Below, in pieces: positions 19,299-62,906 of a stretch of DNA of 64,000 nt. The position numbers were made by a program, and so were the translations under genes. Under the pieces are notes generated by a model. The model was given only the letters and a program-made list of their open reading frames with translations. It was not told the origin of the DNA and ran no database searches. The DNA is taken from positions 124,001-188,000 of the forward strand of contig NZ_NQOU01000004.1 in NCBI RefSeq assembly GCF_003576595.1. The letters run 5' to 3'. Source of the stretch: Neopusillimonas maritima. Its GTDB lineage: Bacteria; Pseudomonadota; Gammaproteobacteria; Burkholderiales; Burkholderiaceae_B. Every line of letters begins with the position of its first letter. Position 1 is the first letter of the stretch.

Positions 19299-19325
19299 TT
19301 TGTCTCCTGTCAGAATGGGCTGCAT

Positions 19326-47433: not shown

Positions 47434-47504
47434 ACGGGGTCTCCTGATATCGTTTTAGGTAGCGACCAAAGCGTTACACAATCAGGAACGGCTTTCAAGT
47501 CTTA

Positions 47505-49076
47505 TCAACAGGCCTGGCGCTCCAGTATGCCGGCAAAGCCGTGCGCCACTTGCAATAGAAACGCATCATCGCCGCACGGTGCCGCTATTTGCAAGCCAAC
47601 CGGAAAGCCGTCGGCATCGGTACCGCAGGGAATTGAAATAGCGGGCATTCCTGTTAAGTTAAAAGGCATGGTTAGCCGCGTTAACGCCGGGTGAATCGGC
47701 AATGACGTACCCCCAACGTCGATATGGCGCGCCAGTTTGGGCGCCCCCACCGGCACGGTTGGCGTGAGCAATACACGGGGGCCATCCAGTAATGTCGTTA
47801 AAGACTGGCGTAACTGGTTACGTAAGCGCTGCGCCTTAATGTAATCAACCGCCCTGATAAATTGACCGGCCTCAAGGCGTGTTCGCACTTCCTCGCCCAA
47901 ACCCTCGGGATGCAAAAGCGCCCGATCAAGGTGCAACTGACCTGCCTCGGCACACAGCGTCATGAACTGAAGTGTGGGCGCCAAATCAAGCTCGGGCACA
48001 GTGGCGCGCAATACATCCACACCTTCATTACGTAACTGTTCAACTACATTGTTAAAGGCCTTGGCCACGCCCGGATCGAGAATATCGAAAAAAAAGTTCT
48101 CGGGAATCACAACCTGCACATTCGGCAACGCCAACGGTTGCGCCAGCCGCGGTGCCGTGCACGCAGACCCCGTCATAATGTCGGTGAGTACAGCCGCTTG
48201 TTCCACTGTTTTTGCAAAAACGCCGACATGGTCAAGCGACCATCCCAACGGCAACATGCCATCGCACGAAATCAAACCATAACTGGGTTTGAATCCAACA
48301 ATGCCGCACAAGGCAGCCGGCATACGCACTGAACCGGCGGTGTCGGTGCCCAAAGCCGCATCCGCCATGCCGGTTGCCACCGCCACCGCCGACCCCCCGC
48401 TGGAACCGCCGGGGACCCGCTCTGGGTCGGCAGGATGACCCACCCGGCCAACATGCGGATTATCGGTTGTCGCGCCATAGGCAAGTTCATGCATGGTTGT
48501 CATCCCCAGCACAATCGCCCCTGCCGCCTCCAGACGCGTAACACACGGTGCGCTGCTATCCGGGGTAAACGCCGGTATTGCCCGCGTTCCCGACGTCATC
48601 GGCATACCCTGCACTTCAAAGCAATCTTTAATCGCCAGCGTCACCCCGGCCAAGACACCCTCCTGTTGCGATCGCGAACGAAACGCGTCAACCAAACGGG
48701 CTTTTTCGTAAGCCGACTCCGCCGCAATATGCTGAAAAGCATTCAATTCGGGACGCGACTGAATCTGCGCCAAGCCTTGTTCAACATTATTGACGGCGCT
48801 GAAAGACGATGCGTCGAGGCCGAACGCACGCTGCGCCAACGACTCAACGCCCAACGTGGCGGTCGCGCACACGCCGGCGCGTGCCGATGTCGGCAAACCA
48901 ATCGGGTCGGCATCATAAAAACAAGCCGCCGAGCTGATTCGCTGCATGTCAGGCAAGTGCATACCCAAACGCGCCACCCAAGCCGGCTGTTGTTCCGGAT
49001 GGGCCACATCGAAAAGCTGCGTTGCGCTTGAAACATAATCCCCAAGCGTTTTGAGATCGAAGGGAACGCGGGTCAT
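47505..49076 (-). CDS. Amidase signature family hydrolase (second copy)
   Basis: A 523-residue paralogue of the neighbouring amidase with the same layout: Lys in LAIKDCFEV, cis-Ser in GGSSGGSAVAVATG, nucleophile Ser in LGTDTAGSVRMPAALCG. Both share the N-terminal helical extension and the QFIRAxDYIKAQRLR segment. The start at 49076 has AGGAGAC upstream. It lies 31 bp after tphB on the same strand. Two tandem amidases next to terephthalate genes suggest hydrolysis of an aromatic amide such as terephthalamate. That is inference; family members also act on other amides. Confidence 0.88.
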   Translation of the reverse strand: MTRVPFDLKTLGDYVSSATQLFDVAHPEQQPAWVARLGMHLPDMQRISSAACFYDADPIGLPTSARAGVCATATLGVESLAQRAFGLDASSFSAVNNVEQGLAQIQSRPELNAFQHIAAESAYEKARLVDAFRSRSQQEGVLAGVTLAIKDCFEVQGMPMTSGTRAIPAFTPDSSAPCVTRLEAAGAIVLGMTTMHELAYGATTDNPHVGRVGHPADPERVPGGSSGGSAVAVATGMADAALGTDTAGSVRMPAALCGIVGFKPSYGLISCDGMLPLGWSLDHVGVFAKTVEQAAVLTDIMTGSACTAPRLAQPLALPNVQVVIPENFFFDILDPGVAKAFNNVVEQLRNEGVDVLRATVPELDLAPTLQFMTLCAEAGQLHLDRALLHPEGLGEEVRTRLEAGQFIRAVDYIKAQRLRNQLRQSLTTLLDGPRVLLTPTVPVGAPKLARHIDVGGTSLPIHPALTRLTMPFNLTGMPAISIPCGTDADGFPVGLQIAAPCGDDAFLLQVAHGFAGILERQAC

Positions 49077-49107
49077 GCGATGTGTCTCCTGAATAAAGCC
49101 GCCTGGA

Positions 49108-50091
49108 TTAAGCAGCGCCGTTCGCACTTAATAAAGCGAAGGTTTCAATCACTGAAGCCGGATCGGCGATGCCCTTGCCTGCAATATCATGAGCAGAACC
49201 ATGACCAACACTGGAAAAGCGCACAGGTGTGCCAATAGTAAGCGCACTGGCACGCAAAGGGCTCAACAGTTTGATTGGAATATGGCCCTGATCATGAAAC
49301 GGAGCCAGGTACACATCGTGACGGCGATGCGCAAGCAAAACATCGGCACCCACCGGCCCGCTAACGACATAACCTTGGTCAATTAAACGTTGCACCATGG
49401 GTACCGCAATACACTCATCTTCCCGGCCAAACAAGCCCCCCTCGCCGGCATGAGGGTTAATTCCCATAACAGCCAGATGCGGCGCTTGCACACCCAAACC
49501 TTTTGTTGCCTCGATTGCCGCAACAGCCGCACTTTCAAACAGTTCCGGTGTCATTCTGGCCAGGGCAGACTGTACACTTTCATGCAGAGTGACATGGGCA
49601 ATACGTAACCCACCCGCGACCAGCATAAGAAAGACTTTATCGGCGGGGGTACCGGTTAAGCGGGCAATTAGCCCCGGATAACCGGAAAACGCAATACCGG
49701 CCTGATGAACGGCGGTTTCAGAATGAGGGCAACCAATAACGGCTTCAACCCGGCCGCTTTGGGCCAGTTCAACCGCTTTACACACGTATGCAACGGTTGC
49801 CTCGCCGGCTGCAGCCGAAACCTCGCCGGGCTTAAAACAGGCGGCAGACAAAGCCTGCACCGGCTCATAAACCAGACACCTCTCAGTTGAAGCCTCCCCT
49901 TTGCACCATTGGGAGAAACTTAGAAGCGCGCAATCCTTATCGTATTGCGTCAGGTAATGCGCAATCACATGCGCATCCCCAACCAACACAGGCTGCGCAC
50001 CCCGCCCTTGCAGCGACAAAGCGGCTTTCACCGCAATTTCAGGCCCAATCCCGTTGGGGTCGCCAATCGCAATCGCAATACAAGGGTTCAT
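49108..50091 (-). CDS. tphB: TphB-like dihydrodiol dehydrogenase (PdxA family)
   Basis: A 327-residue PdxA-fold oxidoreductase. The start IAIGDPNGIGPEI, metal-binding His residues in VTLHESV, INPHAGEG and FHDQGHIPIK, and SSVGHGSAHDIAGKG are family motifs. The CPHSETAVHQAGIAFSGYP segment is very like TphB of terephthalate degraders rather than the vitamin B6 enzyme. TphB oxidises and decarboxylates the cis-dihydrodiol of terephthalate to protocatechuate. The gene follows the second tphA3-like gene by 13 bp, which supports this role over pyridoxine synthesis. Confidence 0.85.
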   Translation of the reverse strand: MNPCIAIAIGDPNGIGPEIAVKAALSLQGRGAQPVLVGDAHVIAHYLTQYDKDCALLSFSQWCKGEASTERCLVYEPVQALSAACFKPGEVSAAAGEATVAYVCKAVELAQSGRVEAVIGCPHSETAVHQAGIAFSGYPGLIARLTGTPADKVFLMLVAGGLRIAHVTLHESVQSALARMTPELFESAAVAAIEATKGLGVQAPHLAVMGINPHAGEGGLFGREDECIAVPMVQRLIDQGYVVSGPVGADVLLAHRRHDVYLAPFHDQGHIPIKLLSPLRASALTIGTPVRFSSVGHGSAHDIAGKGIADPASVIETFALLSANGAA

Positions 50092-50104: not shown

Positions 50105-50581
50105 TTACAGGGGAATCGCCAACAGGGTGTCAATCGCAATACTGTCGCAAACCACCTGGCGTTTTTCAATGGCCAGTTCGCTGCCTTGTATCAATAACTG
50201 GTCAACGTACTTACCTGATGCAAACAAGCTCATTTCACCCGTACGCATCGTTCGGGTAACCAGAAATGGCGTTTCCGCTTGGATGGTTCTTTCGCCAACA
50301 CTATTAATCAATGGTGTTCCAACGATATGCCTGTAGCGATGGCGCTCATATATGTTGGCCTCCCGCAGGGCATTCACACGATCATGCAACATATTTCGGC
50401 TATCGGCATAAATAAGAACTGCAGGCCTTTGCTTTTGATAATTTTCAGCTGTCGTAATTTTGTACAGACATTGCTCAGTAAAAAAACGTGGCCATATCTC
50501 GAGATTATCCTCATCGAGGCTGGCGACGTAGCGAGCATTTAACTGACTCAGCTCATTGATATGTACTTGTGTAGCGCTCAT
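50105..50581 (-). CDS. tphA3: Second terephthalate dioxygenase small (beta) subunit-like protein
   Basis: A 158-residue beta subunit of a Rieske-type dioxygenase (SnoaL/NTF2-like fold). ALREANIYERHRYRHIVG and the ending VCDSIAIDTLLAIPL are almost the same as in the tphA3 gene at 51612; the two proteins look about 60% identical by eye. The ATG overlaps the reductase stop by 4 bp. Terephthalate operons normally carry one small subunit, so this is an extra paralogue, perhaps tuning substrate range or stability. Its codon use and composition resemble the reductase and the genes upstream of it in the operon rather than tphB. Confidence 0.88.
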   Translation of the reverse strand: MSATQVHINELSQLNARYVASLDEDNLEIWPRFFTEQCLYKITTAENYQKQRPAVLIYADSRNMLHDRVNALREANIYERHRYRHIVGTPLINSVGERTIQAETPFLVTRTMRTGEMSLFASGKYVDQLLIQGSELAIEKRQVVCDSIAIDTLLAIPL

Positions 50582-51582
50582 AATTCCGACGACATGACAA
50601 AAGCATCGCAATAAAAACTGTTGCCGGGTAGATCCCTGAGCTGCATGAAATCCTTTCGAGCCGCATTAACCATTGCCGGAACGCCACATACATATACATC
50701 AACGCTCTCCAGGCTTGCAAAATCGTCCATAACCGCGTTGTGCACCAAACCTTCGCGGTCGACACCATTTTTCTCTTCAGACAGCACGGGAACAAACGTA
50801 AAATTAGGAAAGCGGCTCGCCCACTTTTGCGCGAGGCTGGCCAAATAGATATCCACCTTTCGGCGCCCACCCCAATATAAATACACGGGTACTGAGGGGA
50901 AGCCCGATTTCATAAGCGTTTCGATGATTGACTTAACTGGTGCAAACCCGGTTCCGCTTACAACAAACAACAACGGCTTGCTAATCTCTCGAAGATAGAA
51001 ACTGCCAAGAGGAAGCTCTATACTAAGGTAATCACCAACGCACGCCGTTTCCTCAAGATAAGAAGAGAACGCCCCTCCGGGAACGTGTCTTACATGCAAT
51101 TGAACAGAATCCGTTTGATGCGAAGGGCTTGCCATCGAGTAACTTCGAAAACCGCCTTCTTGTAGTTGGATATTAAGGTACTGCCCCGCTTTAAATTTCA
51201 CCCTAACACCCGCGGGAAAGCGCAAACTCAGAATACTGACGTCGTCAGTAACTCGATCAAGTTTGTAAAGTTTGGCGCGGACTTTCTTGACCGCATCGGG
51301 ATCCATACGGTCAATGGATGTCACTTGAATTGTTAAATCGGTTTCAGCCCGGGCCTGACAAAATAAAGTCCAGCCATTCGATCTCTCTTCGTCAGTCAGA
51401 GCACCCGGCTCCCTGTCAAACGCAATGCTGCCTTCTTTAACAACACCTTTGCAACTCCCGCACACGCCATTACGGCACGAATAAGGTAACGCGTATCCAG
51501 CCCGCTTGGCCGATTCGAGAATTGTTTGACCGCTCTCGCACTCAAAAACAATATCCGTACCATCAACGATCACTTTAGTCAT
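50578..51582 (-). CDS. tphA1: Terephthalate dioxygenase reductase component (TphA1-like)
   Basis: A 334-residue flavo-iron-sulfur reductase. Residues 1-90 are a plant-type [2Fe-2S] domain with PYSCRNGVCGSCKG and a fourth Cys in TLFCQAR. Residues 95-200 bind FAD (FRSYSMASPSHQTDS), and the rest binds NAD(P)H (GTGFAPVKSIIE). Domain order and length match TphA1 of Comamonas. It passes electrons from NADH to the Rieske oxygenase. It is placed between the two small-subunit genes. Confidence 0.92.
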   Translation of the reverse strand: MTKVIVDGTDIVFECESGQTILESAKRAGYALPYSCRNGVCGSCKGVVKEGSIAFDREPGALTDEERSNGWTLFCQARAETDLTIQVTSIDRMDPDAVKKVRAKLYKLDRVTDDVSILSLRFPAGVRVKFKAGQYLNIQLQEGGFRSYSMASPSHQTDSVQLHVRHVPGGAFSSYLEETACVGDYLSIELPLGSFYLREISKPLLFVVSGTGFAPVKSIIETLMKSGFPSVPVYLYWGGRRKVDIYLASLAQKWASRFPNFTFVPVLSEEKNGVDREGLVHNAVMDDFASLESVDVYVCGVPAMVNAARKDFMQLRDLPGNSFYCDAFVMSSEL

Positions 51583-51611
51583 GAGCCTTGCTTATTCCTT
51601 GCACAAACATC

Positions 51612-52079
51612 TTACAAAGGGATGGCCAGCAAAGTATCAATGCTAATACTGTCGCAAACCACTACACGCTTCTTGAGTCGAATCCCCGAAGCTGTTCGGA
51701 CTAACTCATCAACATATTTCCCGGTTGCGAACATGCTGATTTCGCCACCCCGCATGATGCGACTTACAAAAAACGCGGTTTCGCAAGCGATCACTTCCTG
51801 ACCGTCTTCGATAAGCGGCATGCCGATTAAATGGCGGTAGCGATGGCTTTCGTATATGTTCGCCTCTCTAAGGGCACTAATGCGGTCGCTGAGCATCCCT
51901 TTACTATTGGCGTATATCAACCCGGCGGGCCGACCAGCCTCATAATTTTCAACGGTGGTCACCTTGTACAGGCAATGATCAATAAAAAAGTTTGGCCACG
52001 CCTCAAGCCGGTCACCGTCTATGCATGCGGCATAAGCGGTATTAAACTTGTTAATTTCTTCAAAAATAGATTCACTCAT
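51612..52079 (-). CDS. tphA3: Terephthalate dioxygenase small (beta) subunit (TphA3-like)
   Basis: A 155-residue small subunit. FNTAYAACIDGDRLEAWPNF, ISALREANIYESHRYRHLIG and VCDSISIDTLLAIPL follow the TphA3 sequence of known terephthalate degraders closely. It has no cofactor and forms the structural base of the alpha3beta3 oxygenase. It starts 3 bp after the tphA2 stop, the usual arrangement. Confidence 0.92.
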   Translation of the reverse strand: MSESIFEEINKFNTAYAACIDGDRLEAWPNFFIDHCLYKVTTVENYEAGRPAGLIYANSKGMLSDRISALREANIYESHRYRHLIGMPLIEDGQEVIACETAFFVSRIMRGGEISMFATGKYVDELVRTASGIRLKKRVVVCDSISIDTLLAIPL

Positions 52080-52082
52080 GCG

Positions 52083-53333
52083 TTAAAGCCCCATATGACT
52101 TCTATAAGCGTGCCAGAACCCTCGCACCGATGTTTCCGTCGCACGATAATCTGCGCTTTCAATATTGACCCCCCCCATTTGCACGACGCTATATTGGTCG
52201 GAGGCACATTGAATGCCTCTTTGAACGAAACCGCCAACCGCTCCATCCTCCATCGATACAAACCCTGAAGCACCAATCAAATTGGACTGCTTTAGCCGCA
52301 TTTCTTCTAGTTCGGCACTATCGTCTTCAAAACCGATGTATGTCCAGTTCAGCTCGGTTGACTCAACGCCTTTTGGAAGAATTTGCCGAACCGCGATGCT
52401 ATTTTGAATTTGCTGCAAAACAAACCCTGGAAATACCGACAATATCTGCAAGGTGACGCCATCACCGAACTCATCCACACCTTCAAGCAAGCTGGGGTCC
52501 GCTAACCGATAATCATCTTTATCTGATCTAAGCTTTTCTTTCTGATATTCCTCACTTTCGGAACTCTTTTTATCAATGACCGAGTAACTTACGTGATGAG
52601 CGCCGGTATCACTAACGATAACCCCACCTCGTTGAGATAAACGATTGATTTTGAATGTCGTGAAAAACACATGCAACAAGCTCGCATGGTAAGTATCTTT
52701 TACATTTTCAAAGTACAGCTTCCAATTGTTGGGAAGCATTTGTTTAAATTTTCCCAATACACGAATCGGCTTATGCAACACTCGTTCGATTCGACCCAGA
52801 ATTTCCTCACCCAGATAATCCTCAATTGAAGGTACATCTTCATCCAGACTACCAAACACAATTCCGCAAACAGTGGCAACACGCAGTTTGCGCGGATCAT
52901 AGTGTTCTTTCTGAAAGTCTGCAGGCATTCCACCTTTTCCGCCAACCCCATTCTGAAAAGCGATTCCTTTGAGGCTACCGGATAAGTCATAACTCCAGGC
53001 ATGGTAAACACATGTCAATTCAGACGCGTTCCCACTATCAGTGATCGCTATAAGCGCTCCTCGATGAGCACATCTATTTTCAAAGGCATAAATTTCGCCA
53101 TCCTGGTCCCTCGTAACCACAACCGGCATTTCACCTACAAAAGTAGTGATGTAATCACCAGCATTGGGAATCTCAGCCTCAAGACACAAATACCCCCAGG
53201 TAGGCCCCTGATAAATCTTTTCCTGTTCTTGCCTCAAGATCTCGGGATGCTGATATACCCAGTAAGGAATGTGAGACGTATCTTCATCCCACTTCAGGCT
53301 CGTATGATTGTTTTCAAACTCTAATTTGTTCAT
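52083..53333 (-). CDS. tphA2: Terephthalate 1,2-dioxygenase large (alpha) subunit (TphA2-like)
   Basis: A 416-residue Rieske oxygenase. The [2Fe-2S] ligands are Cys-88/His-90 (RCAHRG) and Cys-108/His-111 (CVYHAW). The catalytic iron ligands are His-216 and His-221 in DTYHASLLH, with bridging Asp-213 and a later acidic ligand probably in SMEDGAV. Long stretches ([59 protein letters not shown]) agree with TphA2 of Comamonas as I remember it. Arginines 316, 397 and 404 lie where carboxylate-binding arginines would be expected. It would add O2 across the ring of terephthalate or a near analogue. Confidence 0.93.
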
Positions 53334-53356
53334 TTACGACTCTGCTCAACAATTTA

Positions 53357-54787
53357 TCAACATGCCTCAGTGACAAACTTGGTAACAACGTAGCCATCGA
53401 AAGTTTCTGTCCCACCTTCGCTACCAATGCCACTATCTTTGACGCCGCCCAAAGGTGTTTCTGCCAACGCTATACCAAAGTGATTAACGTTGACCATGCC
53501 CGCCTCAAGGTTTGTCGACATAAAACTGGCTCGTTTTAAAGATTTTGTGAAAACGTATGACGCCAAACCATACGGAAGGCTATTTGCTCGCCTGAGCACG
53601 TCGTCAATCGTGTCAAAATGCGTAATCGGAACAACGGGGCCAAATGGTTCATTGACCATAATGTCAGCATCATCACTTACATCAGCTAAAACCGTAGGGC
53701 TGAAAAAATAGCCTTTCTCAAAATTTGCGGGCTGAGCTGCGACAACCTGTGCACCACGTTTTGTCGCGTCGTCGACCAAATGCTGCATTGCTTCGACACG
53801 ACGCCGATGCGCCAACGGCCCCATCTTTGTGGCTGGGTCCAGTCCATCACCAACGCGCAAATCCGCTATTGCACTGCAAAATTTATCAATAAAACTTTGA
53901 TAAACCGGCTTTTGAATGTAAAAACGACTAGGCGCAATACATACTTGACCAGCATTTCGCATTTTCAAACTCACCAACAGTGCAACTGCAGCGTCAATAT
54001 CTGCATCGTCGAATACGACAACCGGTGAATGACCTCCCAACTCCATGGTGATCCGTTTCATGTGTGCACCGGCCAACGACGCCAAGTGTTTACCCACAGG
54101 AACCGACCCAGTGAACGAAACCTTCCGAACGATTGGCGAAGTAAGCAAATGCTGTGACACTTCCGGTGGGTTACCCCACACAATATTGAGACAACCTGGC
54201 GGCAGGCCAGCATCTTCAAATATCTGCGCAAGCGCAACAACCGCACTAGGCGCATCTTCCGGCCCTTTTAGAACCAGAGTGCAACCTGCCCCCAAGGCAG
54301 CAACCATTTTGCGTATCGCTTGGTTGTAGGGAAAGTTCCATGGAGTGAAAGCAACACAAACCCCTACGGGCTCTTTCGTCACGAACTGCCTGACCCCCTC
54401 AACCCTTGGCGGAATAGTGCGCCCATATATCCGCCGGCATTCCTCAGCATGCCATTCAGCTTGTTCTGCACAGTTCAAAATCTCTATCCGTGCTTCTGCC
54501 AAAGGCTTACCCATATCAAGGGTTATATTGCGCGCTATTTCATCGACCCGTTCACGTGTTAATTCGGCCACCTTGCGCAATATTTTTGACCGCTCGAGAG
54601 GAGAGGAACGACGCCACGACTGATATGCCTTATGTGCTGCACCAAGTGCCAAATCCAGATCCTTAGCCGTCGCCGTTGGCAACTTTCCGATCACCTCCTC
54701 AGTAGCCGGATTCACGACGTCCAGGCAATCCCTTTGATCAGCACCAATAAAATGGCCATCGATATACAACGAAAGTTCTGTGTACAT
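53357..54787 (-). CDS. NAD(P)-dependent aldehyde dehydrogenase
   Basis: A 476-residue ALDH-superfamily enzyme resembling succinate-semialdehyde and aromatic aldehyde dehydrogenases. FTPWNFPYNQA is the cofactor site, Glu in TMELGGHSP the general base, and Cys in GQVCIAPSRF the nucleophile. In this operon it lies between an SDR and tphA2, so oxidation of a para-formylbenzoate-type aldehyde to the dicarboxylate is a reasonable hypothesis. The stop is 23 bp before the tphA2 start in transcription order. Confidence 0.9.
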   Translation of the reverse strand: MYTELSLYIDGHFIGADQRDCLDVVNPATEEVIGKLPTATAKDLDLALGAAHKAYQSWRRSSPLERSKILRKVAELTRERVDEIARNITLDMGKPLAEARIEILNCAEQAEWHAEECRRIYGRTIPPRVEGVRQFVTKEPVGVCVAFTPWNFPYNQAIRKMVAALGAGCTLVLKGPEDAPSAVVALAQIFEDAGLPPGCLNIVWGNPPEVSQHLLTSPIVRKVSFTGSVPVGKHLASLAGAHMKRITMELGGHSPVVVFDDADIDAAVALLVSLKMRNAGQVCIAPSRFYIQKPVYQSFIDKFCSAIADLRVGDGLDPATKMGPLAHRRRVEAMQHLVDDATKRGAQVVAAQPANFEKGYFFSPTVLADVSDDADIMVNEPFGPVVPITHFDTIDDVLRRANSLPYGLASYVFTKSLKRASFMSTNLEAGMVNVNHFGIALAETPLGGVKDSGIGSEGGTETFDGYVVTKFVTEAC

Positions 54788-54802
54788 ATTTAATCCCTGG
54801 TT

Positions 54803-55558
54803 TTAAAGGAACACAGAGCCACCGTCGACTGCCAAAGTCTGTCCGGTAATGAATCCAGCGGCATCCGAGATCAGGAAGTTGAGTGCGCCCGTCAAGTCCT
54901 CAGGAACTTGATCTCGTTGAATCGAACGCGAAAGCTTGCGCGTTACGTCACCCATTTGCGAATGCAGGTCGTTTTTCAACACACCATCAGACAGCGTAAA
55001 ACCTGGCGCAATTGCATTGACAGTAATACCTGCACCACCCAGCTCGCGGGCCAGCGAACGGGTAAAGGCAATGACCGCACCCTTGCTCGCAACATAATGC
55101 GACATATTAGGAGGCCCTTTAATGGGGACAGTGGACGCAATATTAACGATCCTCCCCCAACTGTTCTCACGCATGGATGGAGCCACTGCTTTAGCGCATA
55201 TGAACGGACCCAGAGTATTGACCTCCATCACCCTCATCCATTCCTCATTTGAGATCTCCTCGAATGGACGCAAGGTCAAATTGGTAAAGAGCCCTGCATT
55301 GTTTACTAACGCATCGATTCGCCCGAATTTCACCAACGACTGCTTAACCATATTGTTAACATCATCGCTATTGACAACATCGACCTTTACACCAAGCGCA
55401 TCGCTGCCCTGATCAATAAGACTGTTTGCCGCCTCTTCACTTCCGTTCAAGTCTGCAATAACGATCTTGTGGCCCTCTGACGACAAACTTTGCGCGAATT
55501 TGAACCCAATACCACTTGCACCGCCCGTAACAATCACTACTTTTGAACTTTCTTTCAT
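54803..55558 (-). CDS. Short-chain dehydrogenase/reductase (SDR)
   Basis: A 251-residue classical SDR. The TGGASGIGFKFAQSL cofactor turn is at residue 11, an acidic residue at the end of strand 2 (VIADLNG) favours NAD(H), NNAGLF follows, and the YVASKGA active-site Tyr/Lys is near residue 158. Its position between ferredoxin/P450 and the aldehyde dehydrogenase suggests it oxidises a benzylic alcohol, such as 4-(hydroxymethyl)benzoate, to the aldehyde. That is inference. Confidence 0.9.
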   Translation of the reverse strand: MKESSKVVIVTGGASGIGFKFAQSLSSEGHKIVIADLNGSEEAANSLIDQGSDALGVKVDVVNSDDVNNMVKQSLVKFGRIDALVNNAGLFTNLTLRPFEEISNEEWMRVMEVNTLGPFICAKAVAPSMRENSWGRIVNIASTVPIKGPPNMSHYVASKGAVIAFTRSLARELGGAGITVNAIAPGFTLSDGVLKNDLHSQMGDVTRKLSRSIQRDQVPEDLTGALNFLISDAAGFITGQTLAVDGGSVFL

Positions 55559-55594
55559 TTTCTTAACTCAAATTAATGCTCTTTGATCGAATGG

Positions 55595-55918
55595 TTAAAC
55601 CTGATGAGACGGTATATGCACAACGAACTCATCTATATCGCCTGACATAACAAGTTGACAGGACAGACGACTAGTCTCTTTGCGCTCACTCGCGGCACTT
55701 TCGATCATTTCCACTTCAACATCCGCGATCGGCGGCACCAAATGTGTCGATGCCGGATCGACAAAAACGTGACAGGTCGCACACATTGCAGAGCCACCAC
55801 ACTCCGCCACAATGCCGTCAACTGAATTGGAAACTGCGGCTTGCATAACGGTGACCCCCGGTGCAACCTCAATAACGTCTCGGCTACCATCGGGTTGAAC
55901 ATAAGTTACTTTTGTCAT
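55595..55918 (-). CDS. [2Fe-2S] ferredoxin, P450 partner (second copy)
   Basis: A 107-residue ferredoxin with Cys ligands in ECGGSAMCATCHVFV and SRLSCQ. It has the same length and clear similarity to the ferredoxin at 17739. It lies 42 bp downstream of the second P450 gene. No reductase gene is nearby, so it probably accepts electrons from the reductase at 15935 or one encoded elsewhere. Confidence 0.93.
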   Translation of the reverse strand: MTKVTYVQPDGSRDVIEVAPGVTVMQAAVSNSVDGIVAECGGSAMCATCHVFVDPASTHLVPPIADVEVEMIESAASERKETSRLSCQLVMSGDIDEFVVHIPSHQV

Positions 55919-55960
55919 ATCTCTCTTCTTGCTGAATCAGTAATAAGAAATGGTGCTGCT

Positions 55961-57172
55961 CTATAGCGCTACTACACGTGCCGGGATTTGCTTGAATCCT
56001 CGGACGGTGTTGTTGTAATGTCGCACGGGTTCGCCCATCAGTTCGATTGAACGTACTTTTTTCGCGAACGCACGCAGAAGGATATCGCCCTCTAATCGCG
56101 CCATCATTTGGCCCGCACACCCATGGATACCAGTTCCAAACCCGATGTGACCCGTTGCTTTTCTTGACACATCGAACTTATCGGGGTCTGTCCAGCGCCG
56201 GGGATCCCTATTTGCAGAGCCAACAAACACGCAAATTTTCTGGTTCGCATCCATTTCTATGCCCGCCACCTCTACCGGCTTGGTGGTTGTCCGATAAAAT
56301 GAATGAAAAGTCGGCTCGAACCGAATGACTTCCTCAATCGCCTGCCGAGCCAACTGCGGGTTTTCTCTGAGAACTTCGTATTGGTCGGGATACTTGGCGA
56401 AACAAAGCATTGCATTGCAAAGCGTAAATACGGTGGTATCAAGCCCTGCAGAAAGCAGCGTGCGTACCAGCATTCCTGCTTCTTCATGGGTTATTTCTCC
56501 CGCATCCGCCGCTTTATAAAGGTCAGAACCCAAACCATTGGGAGTCAGATTTTCTCTTTGGCATACATTGTTGATCCACTTCACCGACTCTTCAGCTTTA
56601 GCCAAGCGAGAAGTGAAGCGCTCATTCATAGGGCCAAATCCGTTGAACACCATATCACCATAAGGCAGTAAATTCTCCCTTCCCTCGGCAGGTAATCCAA
56701 CCGCATCTGCAAATACTTTGAGCGGGTAAGCTTCACTAAAATCTTTTGCGGCGTCGAAATGTCCCATTTGAATAATCTTGTCTACCAAAGCGTCAGCTTC
56801 AGCCTCGAACGTTTCGCGCAATCTTCCAATCGACGCTGGCGATAATACTCTGGCCACAACCTTACGCGTTCTTGCGTGATGAGGTGGATCAGCCTCCAAG
56901 ATAATGCTCGGTTTGCGCCATGGCTTTTCAGTATTGAAGTTAGTTAGCCCCACCCCTGCGCCGGAGCAAAATGTATGCGCATCAGACAAGACTGCATGCA
57001 CCTCATCGTGTCGGCCTAGCGCATAAGCACCGTAGCGCTCCAGCAACACAACGGGCCCAGCTTCTCGAAGCTGCTCATAATAAGGATAAGGATCAATCAG
57101 AACCTCCTCCGCGTATGGATCAAAATCAGTAACGGGTACTGTATCCTTTGTAAAAGTGGCCAAACTAACCAT
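55961..57172 (-). CDS. Cytochrome P450, CYP199A-like (second copy)
   Basis: A 403-residue soluble P450. Haem Cys-352 is in FGTGIHGCAGQ, the I-helix motif is AGLDTT (residues 242-247), and ExxR is Glu-281/Arg-284. It resembles CYP199A enzymes and the first P450 of the window. Carboxylate-anchor positions are Arg-86 and Ser-89 in WRKPS and Arg-237, with Thr-238 replacing Ser, in LVRTLLS. It leads the operon that continues to ferredoxin, SDR, aldehyde dehydrogenase and tph genes; AGGAGGAGAC precedes the ATG. The context suggests methyl or ether oxidation of a para-substituted benzoate, giving a terephthalate precursor. Confidence 0.9.
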   Translation of the reverse strand: MVSLATFTKDTVPVTDFDPYAEEVLIDPYPYYEQLREAGPVVLLERYGAYALGRHDEVHAVLSDAHTFCSGAGVGLTNFNTEKPWRKPSIILEADPPHHARTRKVVARVLSPASIGRLRETFEAEADALVDKIIQMGHFDAAKDFSEAYPLKVFADAVGLPAEGRENLLPYGDMVFNGFGPMNERFTSRLAKAEESVKWINNVCQRENLTPNGLGSDLYKAADAGEITHEEAGMLVRTLLSAGLDTTVFTLCNAMLCFAKYPDQYEVLRENPQLARQAIEEVIRFEPTFHSFYRTTTKPVEVAGIEMDANQKICVFVGSANRDPRRWTDPDKFDVSRKATGHIGFGTGIHGCAGQMMARLEGDILLRAFAKKVRSIELMGEPVRHYNNTVRGFKQIPARVVAL

Positions 57173-57247
57173 GCGTTCGTCTCCTCCTAGCTGAATAACT
57201 TCCGCAGCACTTTGCGTTAAGCATTCGCACTACCATTGCCTATTTAT

Positions 57248-57307
57248 TGCGCACAAGTTTAGGGAAGGATATACTTGCCGTCAAAGAAATCGATCATTTT
57301 GTGCGCA
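57248..57307. promoter_or_regulatory. Divergent control region: P450-tph promoter flanked by inverted repeat
   Basis: On the minus strand, TTGACG (57279-57284), a 17-bp spacer and TAAACT (57256-57261) form a sigma70-like promoter pointing to the P450 gene. The 9-bp arms TGCGCACAA (57248-57256) and TTGTGCGCA (57299-57307) are perfect inverted copies on either side, 51 bp apart centre to centre, about five helical turns. This fits looping or paired binding by the divergent IclR regulator. Confidence 0.6.
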
Positions 57308-57327
57308 TAGCGAATAAAGGCGAGGAC

Positions 57328-58149
57328 GTGGCTAAGTCAACTCATCACAACGACGTAAACACCCAACAAGATACCCATCTCCCAAAAGACAGATCAAATG
57401 AAGATAAAGAGTACGTCGCCGGGCTCGAAAAAGGCCTTTCAATCATCGAGGCTTTCGGTATTAAAAACACGCCCCTTACGTTGAGTGAAGCTGCCGAGAT
57501 TACTGGCCATTCACGTGCCTCGGCCAGAAGGTCTCTATTAACCCTACAAAAATTAGGTTATGTGGAATGCGACGACAAGCTGTTCCGTCTTGCACCCCGG
57601 GTACTTAGGCTCGGCCATGCTTATTTAACATCAACCGCTTTAGCACGCACAATTCAGCCCACACTTGAAGCAATTAGCGAACGGACGAATGAGTCGAGCT
57701 CCTTTGCCGTTCTGGATGGTTCCGACGCCGTGTTCGTGGCAAGAGCAGCAACCCGCAGAAGCCTTTCAAACGGATTGGGACTTGGTTCGAGACTGCCTGC
57801 CTACTGTGCGGCAACTGGTAGGGTATTGCTAGCAGACCTTGACCCCGACGAAGCAAAAACCCGCCTCGAGCGAAAGCCTCGTCAGAAGCTCACGCCCAAT
57901 ACGCGCATCGACATCCCCACGTTAATGTCATACTTGAATGAAGTACGAAGAGTCGGCTACGCGATCAGTGATGAGGAACTGGAGCTGGGTGTCCGATCAC
58001 TTGCTGTACCGGTTAGAGACCAAAAAGGCCAAACCATTGGATCAATCAGCATCGTCAGCTCGACGTCAAGACGAAGCCTTGAGAACATGATCGAAAACCT
58101 GCTGCCCGAACTTGAAAGAGCACGGTGGATGGTTGCATCGTTGATCTAA
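57328..58149 (+). CDS. IclR family transcriptional regulator
   Basis: A regulator of about 273 residues. A winged helix-turn-helix (LSEAAEITGHSRASARRSLL) lies near residue 55 and an IclR effector domain follows (SFAVLDGSDAVFVARA, LPAYCAATGRVLLA, AISDEELELGVRSLAVPV). It resembles PcaU/PobR/PcaR-type regulators of aromatic pathways. The start is uncertain: GTG at 57328 has AAAGG 7 bp upstream and is used here; GTG 57301 and TTG 57247 lie in the promoter/repeat region. It is divergent from the P450-tph operon and probably controls it in response to terephthalate or an intermediate. Confidence 0.88.
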   Translation: MAKSTHHNDVNTQQDTHLPKDRSNEDKEYVAGLEKGLSIIEAFGIKNTPLTLSEAAEITGHSRASARRSLLTLQKLGYVECDDKLFRLAPRVLRLGHAYLTSTALARTIQPTLEAISERTNESSSFAVLDGSDAVFVARAATRRSLSNGLGLGSRLPAYCAATGRVLLADLDPDEAKTRLERKPRQKLTPNTRIDIPTLMSYLNEVRRVGYAISDEELELGVRSLAVPVRDQKGQTIGSISIVSSTSRRSLENMIENLLPELERARWMVASLI

Positions 58150-58157
58150 TAAGTATC

Positions 58158-58871
58158 TTACACACCAAGAAGGGTTTTAAGCCTGTCGGCGTCAGACAAT
58201 AACTCTGAACTTGAACCCTCAAAAACAATCATACCTTTGACCATAATCAGGTTTCGTGTACTGATTTCTGTAATCGCCTCAAAATTCTTGTCAACGATTA
58301 TCGTCGCGATACCAGACTCTCGAATAGCTGCTATGATCCGCCAAATTTCCTTGGCAATTAAGGGCGCCAATCCTTCAGTAGCTTCATCCAGAATTAACAA
58401 ATCCGGGTTAGTCATCAAGGCTCGCCCAATACTCAGCATTTGTTGCTCCCCCCCCGATAACTGAGCGCCACCATTACTCAGCCGCTCCCTTAATCGCGGA
58501 AAAGAGTCTAGAACCCTGTCATAAGTCCAGTCAAGACGCCCATCTGATCCCGGACGCGCTCCGAGCAATAGATTCTCTTTCACCGACAAGTTGGGAAAGA
58601 TACCACGCCCTTCAGGAACGTAGGCTATCCCCATGCATGCTACCTTATAGGTAGGCATACTCTTGCCTGACCTACCCTTAACAAAAACCTCTCCCTCCCG
58701 CGGCCGCACCACACCAACCAAACTTTTTATCAACGTGGATTTACCCATACCGTTGCGGCCCATCAGCCCAACGGTTTCACCACGCGAGATCGTGAAGTCT
58801 ATCCCGTGCAAAATATGGCTCTGGCCATAATATGAATGAATTCCATGAGCACTCACTAATGCTTCTGACAT
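58158..58871 (-). CDS. livF: Branched-chain-type ABC importer ATP-binding protein LivF (system 3)
   Basis: A 237-residue ATPase with Walker A GRNGMGKST, signature LSGGEQQM and Walker B LLILDEATEGLAP. A Lys (VDKNFEAI) stands near the H-loop, where the other LivF proteins here have Glu-Gln, an unusual substitution. It is convergent with the IclR gene (8-bp gap) and last in the third Liv operon. Confidence 0.92.
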   Translation of the reverse strand: MSEALVSAHGIHSYYGQSHILHGIDFTISRGETVGLMGRNGMGKSTLIKSLVGVVRPREGEVFVKGRSGKSMPTYKVACMGIAYVPEGRGIFPNLSVKENLLLGARPGSDGRLDWTYDRVLDSFPRLRERLSNGGAQLSGGEQQMLSIGRALMTNPDLLILDEATEGLAPLIAKEIWRIIAAIRESGIATIIVDKNFEAITEISTRNLIMVKGMIVFEGSSSELLSDADRLKTLLGV

Positions 58872-58884
58872 ATTGCATCAACCT

Positions 58885-59628
58885 TTAGTGTCCGAAATAA
58901 GCTTGCTGAACCTCGGCGCTGGCACGTACCCGATCGGGCGTGTCCGTCATCAGGACAGATCCATTTACCATCACCGTAATAATGTCTGCAATGGCAAATA
59001 CGGCATCCATATCATGCTCCACCAGCAAAATACCATGTGTCTTTACAAGCTTTTTAAGCAGATCGATCATTTGAAAAGACTCTTCCGAACCCATTCCTGC
59101 GAGCGGCTCATCGAGCAACAAAACGCTCGGTTGCGTCGCAAGAACAATCGCTAACTCAAGCTGCCTTTGCTCACCATGAGATAATGCACTGGCAACCCGG
59201 CTTTCATAACCCTCTAATCCTGTTTCCCAAATCGCTTTCTCAGCAAGATTCTTATAGGGCTCATAATTGCTCGCGCTAGAAAAAACGGCGCCTAAGCGGG
59301 GCTCACGAGATTGCGCGGCCAAACGACAATTCTCCAGCACCGTAAACGTCGGAAAGATATTGGTTTTCTGATAGCTGCGACCAATTCCCAGCAGAGAACG
59401 CTCATTTGGTTGCAAATGTGTCACATCGAGATTACCCAAAAACACCGAGCCACTTGAGCAGGTTAAGTCGCCGGACAACATATTGATCAGGGTCGATTTT
59501 CCAGCACCATTCGGGCCGAGAATCGCATGCGTTTTACCTTTATAAACAGACAACGACACATTGTCGTTCGCAACCAGACCCCCAAAATGCTTGGATACAT
59601 TTTCTGCTCTTAGCAACACATCGTTCAT
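58885..59628 (-). CDS. livG: Branched-chain-type ABC importer ATP-binding protein LivG (system 3)
   Basis: A 247-residue ATPase with Walker A GPNGAGKST, LivG-like signature LSHGEQRQLELA and Walker B VLLLDEPLAGMG, then VEHDMDAVF. It shares one base with livM. Composition is A+T-richer than the Liv genes of systems 1 and 2. Confidence 0.93.
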   Translation of the reverse strand: MNDVLLRAENVSKHFGGLVANDNVSLSVYKGKTHAILGPNGAGKSTLINMLSGDLTCSSGSVFLGNLDVTHLQPNERSLLGIGRSYQKTNIFPTFTVLENCRLAAQSREPRLGAVFSSASNYEPYKNLAEKAIWETGLEGYESRVASALSHGEQRQLELAIVLATQPSVLLLDEPLAGMGSEESFQMIDLLKKLVKTHGILLVEHDMDAVFAIADIITVMVNGSVLMTDTPDRVRASAEVQQAYFGH

Positions 59629-60593
59629 TACGCTTTCCCAACAAGTGCTTTAAACCGGCTGGGTAACGAAGCCAATCCACCCGGCAAGAACAAAACAAAT
59701 AATACAATCGTTATGCCAAGCCACAGTTGCCACCAATCGGTATATGTCATGAAAACGTCTTTAAGCAAAATGAAGGCGAACGCCCCCACTATGCCGCCAA
59801 CAAATTGACCCATACCACCAAATATCAACATAAGCAGGACATCTGCCGATTTATGCCAGGACAAAAGCTCCGGATTAACACCGTAACTTTGGGCAGCAAA
59901 CAAGTAACCAGCCAAAGAAGCAAAAACGCTTGCAATGACAAAAACAATCAACTTATAACGAAAAACAGGAAAACCAATTGACAGCATTCGATGCTCATTT
60001 ATTTTTATACCCTGCACCGCGCGCCCTAAAGGTGACCTCAAGAAAAACCACAATAAAACAACAGAGAAAAACAGCGCTGCCAAAATGAAGTAATACATGG
60101 TCAGAGGGTTTTCCAAATCCAGCAAAACCCAATTACCTATTTCCAACGTAGGCCGCGCATAGAGATTCAAACCATCCGTACTTCCACCAATGGCTGGAAC
60201 ATCATGCACAAGAAAATAAAACACTTGCGCAAATGCCAAAGTCACCATGATGAAATAAATGCCCTTGGTCCTTAAAACAAACAAGCCAACGATAAAGGAA
60301 AGTACTGCTGCGGCGATCAGCGCAACGGGCAACGTGATCCAAAAACTGTCGGTAACTTGATAATGAGTGGAAAGGAGCGCAAACGCATATGCGCCTACTC
60401 CAAACCATGCCGCATGCCCAAAGCTGATTAAACCCGCGTACCCCACCAGCAAATCCAGGCTGACTGCAAATAACGCTAGTATCACGATTCGGGACACCAT
60501 GTCATTGTAGAAATCAAACCCAAGCGTCGGGAACAACAATAAAGCGATAAACATCACCGCCAAAAGCACATATTTATTTTTGCTTTCTACCAT
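59628..60593 (-). CDS. livM: Branched-chain-type ABC importer permease LivM (system 3)
   Basis: A permease of about 321 residues with 8-10 hydrophobic segments and the LivM signature SLDLLVGYAGLISFGHAAWF near residue 45, plus IFGGMGQFVGGIVGA near residue 255. The start is placed at ATG 60593 (GGTGAG upstream); a GTG at 60602 overlapping the livH stop is the alternative. Confidence 0.91.
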   Translation of the reverse strand: MVESKNKYVLLAVMFIALLLFPTLGFDFYNDMVSRIVILALFAVSLDLLVGYAGLISFGHAAWFGVGAYAFALLSTHYQVTDSFWITLPVALIAAAVLSFIVGLFVLRTKGIYFIMVTLAFAQVFYFLVHDVPAIGGSTDGLNLYARPTLEIGNWVLLDLENPLTMYYFILAALFFSVVLLWFFLRSPLGRAVQGIKINEHRMLSIGFPVFRYKLIVFVIASVFASLAGYLFAAQSYGVNPELLSWHKSADVLLMLIFGGMGQFVGGIVGAFAFILLKDVFMTYTDWWQLWLGITIVLFVLFLPGGLASLPSRFKALVGKA

Positions 60594-60598
60594 CAGTC

Positions 60599-61468
60599 TC
60601 ACCGCTTAAAAATTCCGTCAGGTCGCCACAATAAAACCATGGCCATAATTATGTAGGTCAGCATCCCCGCTACACTCGGGAAAAACACGCTGCCAAAAGT
60701 GTCTGCAAATGCAATGACCATAGCCGCAAACAAGGCACCCCAAACAGAACCGATTCCCCCTATCACAACCACGACAAAACTTACAATCAACACTTCCATG
60801 CCCATCCCTGGCGCAACCGCCGAGGCCGGCGCGTTGATCATGCCCGCGAACGCGGCAAGCCCTACCCCGAGAGAAAACACGAGACGATTGACCATGCTGA
60901 TATTGACTCCCAGAACTTCAGCCATACCACTATTTGTCGCCCCCGCTCGAATCATCGACCCGATGCGCGTTCGGTTAATTAATATATACATACCAATGGC
61001 GACCAAAACGCACACCCCGGACATAAACAGGCGATAGAACGGGTAAGACATAATGTCTCCGAGCGGTATGGAGAAATTCAGCCAAGCGGGGACATCAATG
61101 GAGTGAACTTCGTCACCGACGAAAATGCTGCGCAGCTCTTCAAATATCAAAATCAAGCCATAGCTCAAGAGAACCTGCTCAAGGTGATCTCTTTTATAAA
61201 GGTGCTTAAATAATGCCCACTCCAGAAGGGCGCCAATGATGACGCTTAAAATTGCCCCCAATATTACTGCGACGAAAAAATTTCCTGTAAGGCCAGTTAT
61301 GGTGAACGCAAAATATGCACCCATCATATAGAAACTGCCATGCGCAATATTAATAACGCCCATCACACCAAATATAAGCGTAAGGCCACTTGCTATTAGA
61401 AACAAAAGCAATCCATACTGAATTGCGTTCAATGCCTGGATTAATAGTGACCCTAACAATATATCCAT
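60599..61468 (-). CDS. livH: Branched-chain-type ABC importer permease LivH (system 3)
   Basis: A 289-residue permease with the LivH signature INIAHGSFYMMGAYFA near residue 39 and VIGGIGSVWGALFAA near residue 235. It follows the receptor gene after a 100-bp gap and is coupled to livM. Confidence 0.92.
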   Translation of the reverse strand: MDILLGSLLIQALNAIQYGLLLFLIASGLTLIFGVMGVINIAHGSFYMMGAYFAFTITGLTGNFFVAVILGAILSVIIGALLEWALFKHLYKRDHLEQVLLSYGLILIFEELRSIFVGDEVHSIDVPAWLNFSIPLGDIMSYPFYRLFMSGVCVLVAIGMYILINRTRIGSMIRAGATNSGMAEVLGVNISMVNRLVFSLGVGLAAFAGMINAPASAVAPGMGMEVLIVSFVVVVIGGIGSVWGALFAAMVIAFADTFGSVFFPSVAGMLTYIIMAMVLLWRPDGIFKR

Positions 61469-61568
61469 AATAGATTCTTCGATTTTTAATCGGGTGTTTC
61501 AAGCAAACAAAAAGACAAACGACCGCCGTTTTAAGACGACCGCTTGTCAAGGAGTAGCCGTTAAGATG

Positions 61569-62726
61569 TTACCGTTTGCAATCAGGGGAAGGGTCAGCCA
61601 GCGCTTCCACAGCAATACCCACCATGACATTCTGATCACCACGTGCTTCACGAATATACATATTCATGACAGGGTTATGTGATTTGGAAAATGACAGGGG
61701 CCCGCGAGGACTATCAAGCTTAGCGTTTTCCATCGCGCGAATCATGTCTTCTTTCTTGGAGGTATCCCCGTTGACTGCCTCAAGGCCCGCGATGAACAAC
61801 TGCGCAGAATCATAACCCTGTACCGCAAACACATCAGGGGTTTCGCCATGGGCCTTCTTGTATGCCTCGATAAAGGCCTGATTTTTGGGGTTATCCAATC
61901 CATCGGCGTAATGCAATGCCGTCAGCATCCCCTGTGCAGAACTTCCTTGCGCCTCGAGCGTACCCTCTGTGAGGAATGCACCATATAAAGGGATCTTGTC
62001 TTTCAAGCCCGATGCTTCGTAGTCTTTTGTTAATTTCACCTGAGCAGCGCCTGCCACAAATGCATAAACAGCATCGGGTTGAAGTGTTGCAATTTCCGTG
62101 AGCAATGGCTGGAACTCAGTATTGGGGAAAGGAAGAGACAGATGCTTCAGCACCTTACCGCCACCCGCCTCGAAGGCTTCCTTGAAGCCCGCTGTTTGCT
62201 CGTCTCCGGCTGCGTAATTCCACGCCAAAGAAACAGCGGTTTTATGTTTTTGAGCCATTAATGCACCAACAGCATAGCCAGCTTGCCAATTAGAGAAAGA
62301 AGCTCTGAAGATGTTTGGTGAACATAAGGCGCCGGTTAACTCGTTTGCGCCAGCATTGGGAATAATCATTAGCGCACCCGTGTTCTTGGCCACGCGCGCC
62401 ATCGTTAACGCAACACCAGAATGCACCGTACCCACAAGTACATCGACATTGTCGCGACGGATCAATTTATTGGCGTTCTCGTTTGCCTTCGCAGGAGCCG
62501 ACTCATCGTCCAACTCAACATACTCGATGGTCCGGCCTGCGATTTTTCCACCCTTCTGATCAATCGCCAGCTTAAAACCATTAGTAATATTTTGACCCAA
62601 CTCGGCGAACGTCCCGGAATATGGCAACATCAGCCCGACTTTCACGTCGTCGGCAGCATACGCCCCAACAGACGTGCAAGTCAGTGCAACTGCTGCTAGC
62701 AAACGTAATGAAAATTTGCGTCGCAT
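61569..62726 (-). CDS. ABC transporter substrate-binding protein, Liv type (system 3)
   Basis: A 385-residue periplasmic receptor. The signal peptide (MRRKFSLRLLAAVALTCTSV, cleavage near AYA) is followed by DVKVGLMLPYSGTFAELG. DVLVGTVHSGVALTMARV and FVAGAAQVKLTKDYE resemble receptors of aromatic-acid importers. GAGGAGAC lies upstream of the ATG. Placed beside the IclR/tph genes, it probably binds terephthalate or its precursor. Ligand assignment is inference. Confidence 0.92.
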   Translation of the reverse strand: MRRKFSLRLLAAVALTCTSVGAYAADDVKVGLMLPYSGTFAELGQNITNGFKLAIDQKGGKIAGRTIEYVELDDESAPAKANENANKLIRRDNVDVLVGTVHSGVALTMARVAKNTGALMIIPNAGANELTGALCSPNIFRASFSNWQAGYAVGALMAQKHKTAVSLAWNYAAGDEQTAGFKEAFEAGGGKVLKHLSLPFPNTEFQPLLTEIATLQPDAVYAFVAGAAQVKLTKDYEASGLKDKIPLYGAFLTEGTLEAQGSSAQGMLTALHYADGLDNPKNQAFIEAYKKAHGETPDVFAVQGYDSAQLFIAGLEAVNGDTSKKEDMIRAMENAKLDSPRGPLSFSKSHNPVMNMYIREARGDQNVMVGIAVEALADPSPDCKR

Positions 62727-62906
62727 AAATGTGTCTCCTCAATTTATTAAGTTCAATACCGCTAATCGCCCTCAAATAGTGTCTATTCTTGTAGTGCTTC
62801 TATCGTATAGCTCGTGCTTCAGGGGGCGCTAACAGGTTCAAAGTGTATGTTTCGCCACTTTTTAGTGTCAACGATTTCGGAACATTTATGCGCTATGCGA
62901 ACAATC

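Follow-up and report, generated by a model that had tools for sequence, protein, structure and literature searches.

TsaM, TsaC and TsaD together convert 4-methylbenzoate to 1,4-benzenedicarboxylate, as described in PMC10579966. Other enzymes acting on para-substituted benzoates are the CYP199A cytochromes P450, which are mainly p-methoxybenzoate demethylases and of which PbdA and CYP199A4 also hydroxylate p-ethylbenzoate (PMC11530827, in part). In these enzymes the substrate carboxylate is contacted by Arg92, Ser95 and Ser244 (CYP199A4 numbering), and the pocket residues comprise Leu98, Phe182, Phe185, Ala248 and, in PbdA numbering, Phe291 and Val288 (PMC11530827 and PMC11854964, both in part). 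For terephthalate 1,2-dioxygenase (TPADO), the residues involved in terephthalate contact or recognition are R309, R390, S243, N224 and I290 (PMC9060491, in part). Here we describe a stretch of 64,000 nucleotides from Neopusillimonas maritima (contig NZ_NQOU01000004.1, positions 124,001 to 188,000 of the forward strand; hereafter the window), in which a gene for a CYP199-type P450, called P450a, heads a run of genes that continues into those of terephthalate degradation (tph). The best reading of this locus, and in our judgement a probable one, is a regulon that leads from p-toluate through terephthalate to protocatechuate and is started by the P450.

Nine minus-strand genes extend from 57172 to 49108 in the order P450, ferredoxin, short-chain dehydrogenase/reductase (SDR), aldehyde dehydrogenase (ALDH), tphA2, tphA3, tphA1, second tphA3 and tphB. 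Since the eight gaps between them span only -4 to +42 bp, the nine genes are likely to form one transcription unit. The original prediction had named a minus-strand run with a CYP199A-like P450, ferredoxin, SDR, ALDH and three TphA parts, followed by tphB, and all of these were found in the order given. It had placed the run at 50105-57172; the genes within these limits were correctly assigned, but the unit runs on to tphB at 49108, and 50105-50581 encodes a second TphA3-like subunit. The features of the locus, including a divergent regulator of the IclR family, an ATP-binding cassette (ABC) transporter and two candidate operators, are the following:

55961..57172, minus strand: CYP199-type cytochrome P450 (P450a), proposed p-toluate methyl hydroxylase, from PDB matches and CYP199A residues
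55595..55918, minus strand: putidaredoxin-like [2Fe-2S] ferredoxin, proposed electron donor of the P450; best PDB match putidaredoxin (1.2e-30)
54803..55558, minus strand: classical SDR, proposed 4-hydroxymethylbenzoate dehydrogenase, from motifs and operon orthologues
53357..54787, minus strand: aldehyde dehydrogenase (SSADH-like), proposed 4-formylbenzoate dehydrogenase; Pfam Aldedh 4.2e-158
52083..53333, minus strand: TphA2, terephthalate 1,2-dioxygenase alpha subunit; 66% identical to 7VJU
51612..52079, minus strand: TphA3 beta subunit, copy 1; match to the 7Q04 beta chain 6.3e-47
50578..51582, minus strand: TphA1-type reductase with Fer2, FAD and NAD domains
50105..50581, minus strand: TphA3-like beta subunit, copy 2, with 57% identity to copy 1
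49108..50091, minus strand: TphB, dihydrodiol dehydrogenase of the PdxA family; match to 4ATY
57247..58149, plus strand: IclR/PcaR-PobR-type regulator (TphR-like), divergent from the operon; TIGR02431 301.8 bits against a cut-off of 284.75
57301..57315, minus strand: candidate operator ATTCGCTATGCGCAC, 16 bp before the TTGACG of the P450 promoter
58158..62726, minus strand: branched-chain-type ABC transporter with two ATPases, two permeases and a binding protein; proposed importer of aromatic acids, from orthologues in tph clusters
62888..62902, minus strand: candidate operator GTTCGCATAGCGCAT, 16 bp before the TTGACA of the transporter promoter

According to the proposed route, the ABC transporter would import para-toluate (4-methylbenzoate), and P450a, receiving electrons from a ferredoxin reductase through the operon ferredoxin, would hydroxylate its para-methyl group (CH3 to CH2OH). 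The SDR would oxidise the alcohol to 4-formylbenzoate, which the ALDH would convert to terephthalate; TphA1A2A3 would then give the cis-dihydrodiol and TphB protocatechuate, to be cleaved by the protocatechuate 4,5-dioxygenase of the genome. Both the P450-tph and the transporter operons would be turned on by the TphR-like IclR protein through matched operators. The reactions are assigned by analogy with TsaMBCD; we infer these, the substrate, the import and the regulation, while the gene set, the residues, the conserved linkage and the operator geometry are read directly. That the P450, SDR and ALDH take CH3 to COOH, after which Tph completes the path, had already been proposed, and the linkage, the residues and the tph-type promoter support it as the simplest account. 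The substrate range proposed with it, para-substituted benzoates, appears too wide, as SDR, ALDH and TPADO together are best matched to a para-methyl group.

The closest structural matches of TphA2 are 7VJU (1.2e-186) and the TPADO 7Q04 (3.3e-186), and the protein keeps H210, H215 and D356. Because all five contact residues (N224, S243, I290, R309 and R390) are present, the ring dioxygenase very probably takes terephthalate. This motif is also complete in the TphA2 of G003 (same genus), G108 and G586 (two genomes of another family), Eoetvoesiella caeni, a Herminiimonas metagenome-assembled genome (MAG) and G190; the TphA2 of G235 departs from it by a Ser at position 224, and a paralogue of 40% identity in the window genome keeps R309 alone of the five. 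An identity as anthranilate or benzoate dioxygenase was rejected, since even the best-matching NCBIfam models score under their cut-offs (AndAc 452 of 750, AndAd 148 of 230 and BenC 230 of 430 bits) and the matches to TPADO chains are far better. Homologues of TphA1 adjoin tphA2/A3 in G108 (46%) and G586 (43%). The second tphA3 starts with an ATG at 50581, in a 4-bp overlap with the stop of tphA1, an arrangement of translational coupling; the product of this second copy is 100% identical in G003 and, among the tph loci examined, occurs only in the window genus. TphB matches the terephthalate cis-dihydrodiol dehydrogenase 4ATY at 2.1e-87, with 4-hydroxythreonine-4-phosphate dehydrogenase chains marginally ahead (2.7e-88); it scores 235 bits, under the PdxA equivalog cut-off of 290, and is assigned as TphB, a PdxA-family relative of 4ATY. 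For the last step, the protocatechuate 4,5-dioxygenase LigAB is encoded at L074:13794-15049 (minus strand), about 8 kb beyond the window end, its alpha subunit reaching 207 bits against a cut-off of 141. The LigAB genes adjoin another branched-chain-type ABC transporter. A 3,4-dioxygenase may be encoded by two neighbouring PF00775 genes on contig 23.

With respect to P450a, the best PDB matches are CYP199A2 (1.2e-140, 53% identity) and CYP199A4 (4.3e-137, 50% identity). Membership of the CYP199 family is set at more than 40% identity to its members, a level that P450a exceeds, and the heme-thiolate motif is present as FGTGIHGCAG; for the CYP199A subfamily the rule is at least 55%, and P450a lies under it. 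Known CYP199A members nonetheless share down to 51% identity (PMC11530827, in part). Compared with CYP199A2 and CYP199A4, P450a keeps R92, S95, L98, F182, F185, R243, A248, T252, F298 and C358, and differs at T244, F295, H296 and S297. The carboxylate anchors of CYP199A enzymes R92, S95 and R243 and the pocket residues F182, F185 and F298 are among those kept, and the contact and pocket residues named above are all present except that Ser244 is Thr and Val295 is Phe. Because these residues are kept, a para-substituted benzoate is the expected ligand of P450a, and the pocket is probably narrower around the para-group.

A search of genomes, suggested along with the original prediction for the same gene order, recovered the whole block in G003, with 95-100% protein identity from the P450 to TphB, and a rearranged order in G108 and G586. 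The order in G108 is IclR, A2, A3, A1, P450, ferredoxin, ferredoxin reductase, SDR, ALDH, a DctP-type binding protein and TphB (P450 69%, ferredoxin 60%, SDR 73% and ALDH 68% identical). In G586 a single strand carries P450, ferredoxin, ferredoxin reductase, SDR, ALDH, ABC transporter, A2, A3, B and A1 (P450 65%, ferredoxin 64%, SDR 65% and ALDH 67%). In both, the ferredoxin gene lies immediately 3' of the P450 gene, and the ferredoxin reductase sits between ferredoxin and SDR. P450a, ferredoxin, SDR, ALDH, Tph, IclR and transporter are co-linked in three Burkholderiales lineages, and since the gene orders differ between lineages, the grouping appears to be maintained by selection or re-formed rather than merely inherited in place. 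Its recurrence in two other lineages and in the second genome of the genus indicates that the P450-tph set is no chance grouping.

The P450 was sought in overlapping samples of 101 relatives, 14 chosen genomes, 399 genomes of the order, 200 of the G108 family, 369 of the class and 398 of the phylum. The P450a clade was represented in four genomes only (G000, G003, G108 and G586), and the search of the 101 relatives did not find P450a in G001 and G002, which are of the same genus. In an alignment of 32 CYP199 sequences the four form one clade with support of 1.0 (0.45 for the neighbour G1174). T244, H296 and S297 are found in all four and in none of the other 28 sequences, F295 in all four and in one of the 28, and in 18 alignment columns the clade has a fixed residue that the others lack. 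These residues are to be taken as markers and not as proof of function, because any old clade would show such fixed columns. The linkage follows the same division, tphA2 lying 1.6-9.5 kb from the P450a gene in all four genomes. Matches to tphA2, tphA3 and tphB (E <= 1e-5) were absent from 26 other CYP199 contexts, covered for 5.6-10.0 kb per side; a layout such as that of G586, with tphA2 at 9.5 kb from the P450, could escape this search for tphA2, although not for SDR and ALDH. The latter appear in three of the contexts, as distant relatives only (SDR of 32-33% in two, ALDH pieces of 34-39% in two). The 26 are counted apart from the 38-42% matches (four places in G019 and G056), the 29-33% matches among the 14 genomes, G1030, and 1224 plasmid records; of the 1226 such records with a P450 match, H1 and H3 were examined. 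It is important to note that P450a is found in a minority of tph carriers, namely 3 of the 14 genomes chosen for tphA2; the tph stretches examined in E. caeni and the Herminiimonas MAG have neither the P450 nor orthologues of the operon-type SDR and ALDH.

In the control region, the regulator is 68-75% identical to those adjoining tph in E. caeni and Herminiimonas. The TTG start listed for its gene (57247-57330 region) is probably wrong and the true start downstream of 57316, because the first ~23 codons are not in an open frame in G003 and the operator lies inside them. An exact GTTCG-N5-CGAAC palindrome is found between regulator and first gene in G108 and G586. A rule defined as this 15-bp palindrome with at most two mismatches, placed exactly 16 bp before TTGAC, was scanned over 1.06 Mb of partly redundant loci and gave 7 distinct sites, each at a tph, P450 or binding-protein promoter of a tph cluster, a count that is descriptive given that the rule was derived from some of the same sites. 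Two of them are in the window, at the P450 and the transporter promoter, and recur in G003; G108 and G586 contribute one each, at their first promoter, Herminiimonas two, at the promoters of tphA2 and of a binding-protein gene, and E. caeni one, at that of a binding-protein gene. When spacings from 6 to 30 bp are compared over the five main loci, 7 palindromes stand at 16 bp and 2 in total at the other 24. The presence of a tph-type operator-N16-TTGAC at its promoter suggests that the P450 has been placed into the terephthalate regulon.

Regulator and transporter appear to belong with the operon, judging by their composition, the layout of the promoters and their linkage to it in G586 and G108; the transporter has orthologues of 57-68% identity inside the operon of G586 and of 48-67% downstream in the cluster of G108. 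In terms of composition, the G+C content at third codon positions (GC3) is 0.43-0.53 in the P450-to-tphB and ABC-transporter genes and 0.58-0.61 in the measured amidase, XdhC-side, nitrilase and second-P450 genes. By virtue of this difference from flanking and second-P450 genes, the P450-tph block and the transporter look acquired. On balance, we lean towards a wider proposal, in which the members of the P450a clade form a new branch of CYP199 specialised in the hydroxylation of para-methylbenzoate, taking over the step of the Rieske protein TsaM together with a ferredoxin, SDR and ALDH of their own. In at least three lineages of Burkholderiales this set would have been brought together with tph behind a TphR-type operator, and the result would be a mobile regulon for p-toluate, complete in itself and equipped with an ABC importer.

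Other explanations have to be weighed. P450a might be an ordinary CYP199A p-methoxybenzoate (anisate/veratrate) O-demethylase that lies in the tph operon by chance, with the SDR and ALDH serving formaldehyde or unrelated alcohols; its identity to CYP199A2 and CYP199A4, the carboxylate anchors common to them and the main activity of that group (PMC11530827, in part) speak for this. We nevertheless hold it to be unlikely, as the linkage to SDR, ALDH and Tph is repeated in three lineages and T244, F295, H296 and S297 set the clade apart from these enzymes. From textbook pathway knowledge, moreover, demethylation leads to 4-hydroxybenzoate, which bypasses Tph. The genome also has a second CYP199A-like P450 at 18081-19325 (minus strand), 52% identical to P450a and with S244 and V295, of a kind found without tph in Alcaligenaceae and G108-family contexts; in the contexts examined, P450s of this kind mostly adjoin a ferredoxin, and many also a reductase and a binding protein of the LivJ type. 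This second enzyme is probably an ordinary p-methoxybenzoate demethylase. It is also improbable that the terephthalate formed here derives mainly from a different compound, such as 4-hydroxymethylbenzoate, 4-ethylbenzoate or monomethyl terephthalate, with p-toluate as a side substrate. The para-group is not fixed by sequence and the action of PbdA and CYP199A4 on p-ethylbenzoate is consistent with that idea (PMC11530827, in part), but the combination of SDR, ALDH and a para-dicarboxylate-specific dioxygenase fits a one-carbon para-group, demethylation of a methyl ester requires neither SDR nor ALDH, and the bulk of V295F, where Val288 of PbdA lines the pocket, would favour a small para-group.

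Several observations weigh against the P450-started p-toluate regulon. Between tphB and the transporter genes of G108 there is a gene for a Rieske monooxygenase of the VanA/TsaM type, accompanied by a separate ALDH and SDR (L044:1892-5232, minus strand). Given this gene and four homologues elsewhere in the window genome (67-73%), a Rieske route may coexist and the P450 is perhaps not the sole candidate methyl oxidiser. It could even be argued that such a monooxygenase, encoded elsewhere, performs the methyl hydroxylation in vivo and that the P450 has another substrate in the regulon. However, the 16 matches to the G108 protein in the window genome, the four homologues included, all lie outside the window cluster, and no such gene was found among the homologues sought between the P450 and tphA1 of G586. 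Among solved structures the G108 protein, at most a putative TsaM, comes closest to the dicamba demethylase DdmC. On these grounds we hold this last explanation to be very unlikely. The SDR fits the classical NAD-dependent motifs (TGX3GXG, NNAG, Asp after beta2, and Asn-Ser-Tyr-Lys, read from the alignment), and is 65-73% identical to the SDRs of the G586 and G108 operons (best plasmid match, 51%), but it has Ile rather than a small residue at the position mapped to the gate Gly146 of TsaC. This Ile, four residues past the catalytic Ser, is found in the SDRs of the window, G003, G108 and G586, the gate being mapped by Ser-Tyr spacing only; with no small gate residue, the SDR was not assigned as TsaC. 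The ALDH, of a common SSADH-like kind, is as close to an ALDH of Cupriavidus metallidurans (67%) as to its operon orthologues in G108 and G586 (67-68%), and is for this reason not diagnostic by itself. The ferredoxin has its four cysteines (40, 46, 49 and 87), but no ferredoxin reductase is encoded in the window operon; the likely partner is the one encoded at 15935-17155, beside the second P450. Finally, the window operators carry two mismatches, a level at which the palindrome occurs as expected by chance (33 found, 31.55 expected), and only the fixed spacing to TTGAC distinguishes them.

Some neighbouring genes deserve mention. Two amidase genes lie directly 3' of tphB (45832-49127, minus strand), the first overlapping it by 20 bp by the limits of the open reading frames, and a Nit6803-family nitrilase gene (62907-63935, minus strand) adjoins the transporter, with a 42% relative upstream of the G586 operon. 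A nitrile-to-toluate entry through these genes was considered and set aside, as their GC3 (0.59-0.60) is unlike that of the operon and neither amidase has a counterpart in the G108 and G586 stretches searched; given the nitrilase relative near the G586 operon, the idea is a weak one rather than a refuted one. Upstream of the G586 operon (L053:732-6474), a nitrilase gene is accompanied by genes for a LigXa-type Rieske protein and a glutamine-synthetase-like protein and by a ferredoxin/reductase region, a set that recalls an aniline-type dioxygenase cluster.

Activity of CYP199A4 on 4-methylbenzoate had been counted as known in the original prediction; searches of the open-access literature did not find a report of it. 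No description of a P450-tph operon was found in the open-access literature, subscription papers being outside its scope, and for CYP199A or P450 with methylbenzoate and terephthalate only work on the Rieske protein TsaM surfaced there. If the p-toluate regulon proposed here is correct, it would represent a second, P450-based entry to p-toluate degradation, for which all parts and the control sequence are available, and a catalyst set for obtaining terephthalic acid from p-toluic acid. Residues T244, F295, H296 and S297 may move the p-methoxybenzoate demethylase fold toward methyl hydroxylation, and the promoter rule (palindrome, 16 bp, TTGAC) could be used to locate terephthalate regulons.

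The proposed chemistry, from methyl to alcohol, aldehyde, acid and protocatechuate, is the same as that of TsaMBCD and Tph in Comamonas testosteroni, which acts on p-toluate and p-toluenesulfonate (PMC10579966, in part). The difference lies in the first enzyme, which is a CYP199-type P450 with a ferredoxin in the window and the Rieske oxygenase TsaM with the reductase TsaB in Comamonas testosteroni; the gate residue of the SDR also differs from that of TsaC, a comparison based on published motifs, in part, rather than on TsaC and TsaD sequences. P450a resembles CYP199A2, CYP199A4 and PbdA in its anchors and Phe pocket (50-53% identity to the first two), whereas it belongs to a separate clade and is found within tph clusters rather than alone. 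The tph clusters of Comamonas sp. E6 and KF1 have TphA2, A3, A1 and B, the full terephthalate motif and an IclR regulator in common with the window, which in turn adds the P450 module within the unit and a second TphA3 copy, and has an ABC transporter in place of the TphC of the Comamonas systems. A parallel is offered by CreHIJEFGDC of Corynebacterium glutamicum, in which a P450, its redox partners and alcohol and aldehyde dehydrogenases also turn an aryl methyl group into a carboxylate, in this case on 4-alkylphenyl phosphates and by a route that does not go via terephthalate.

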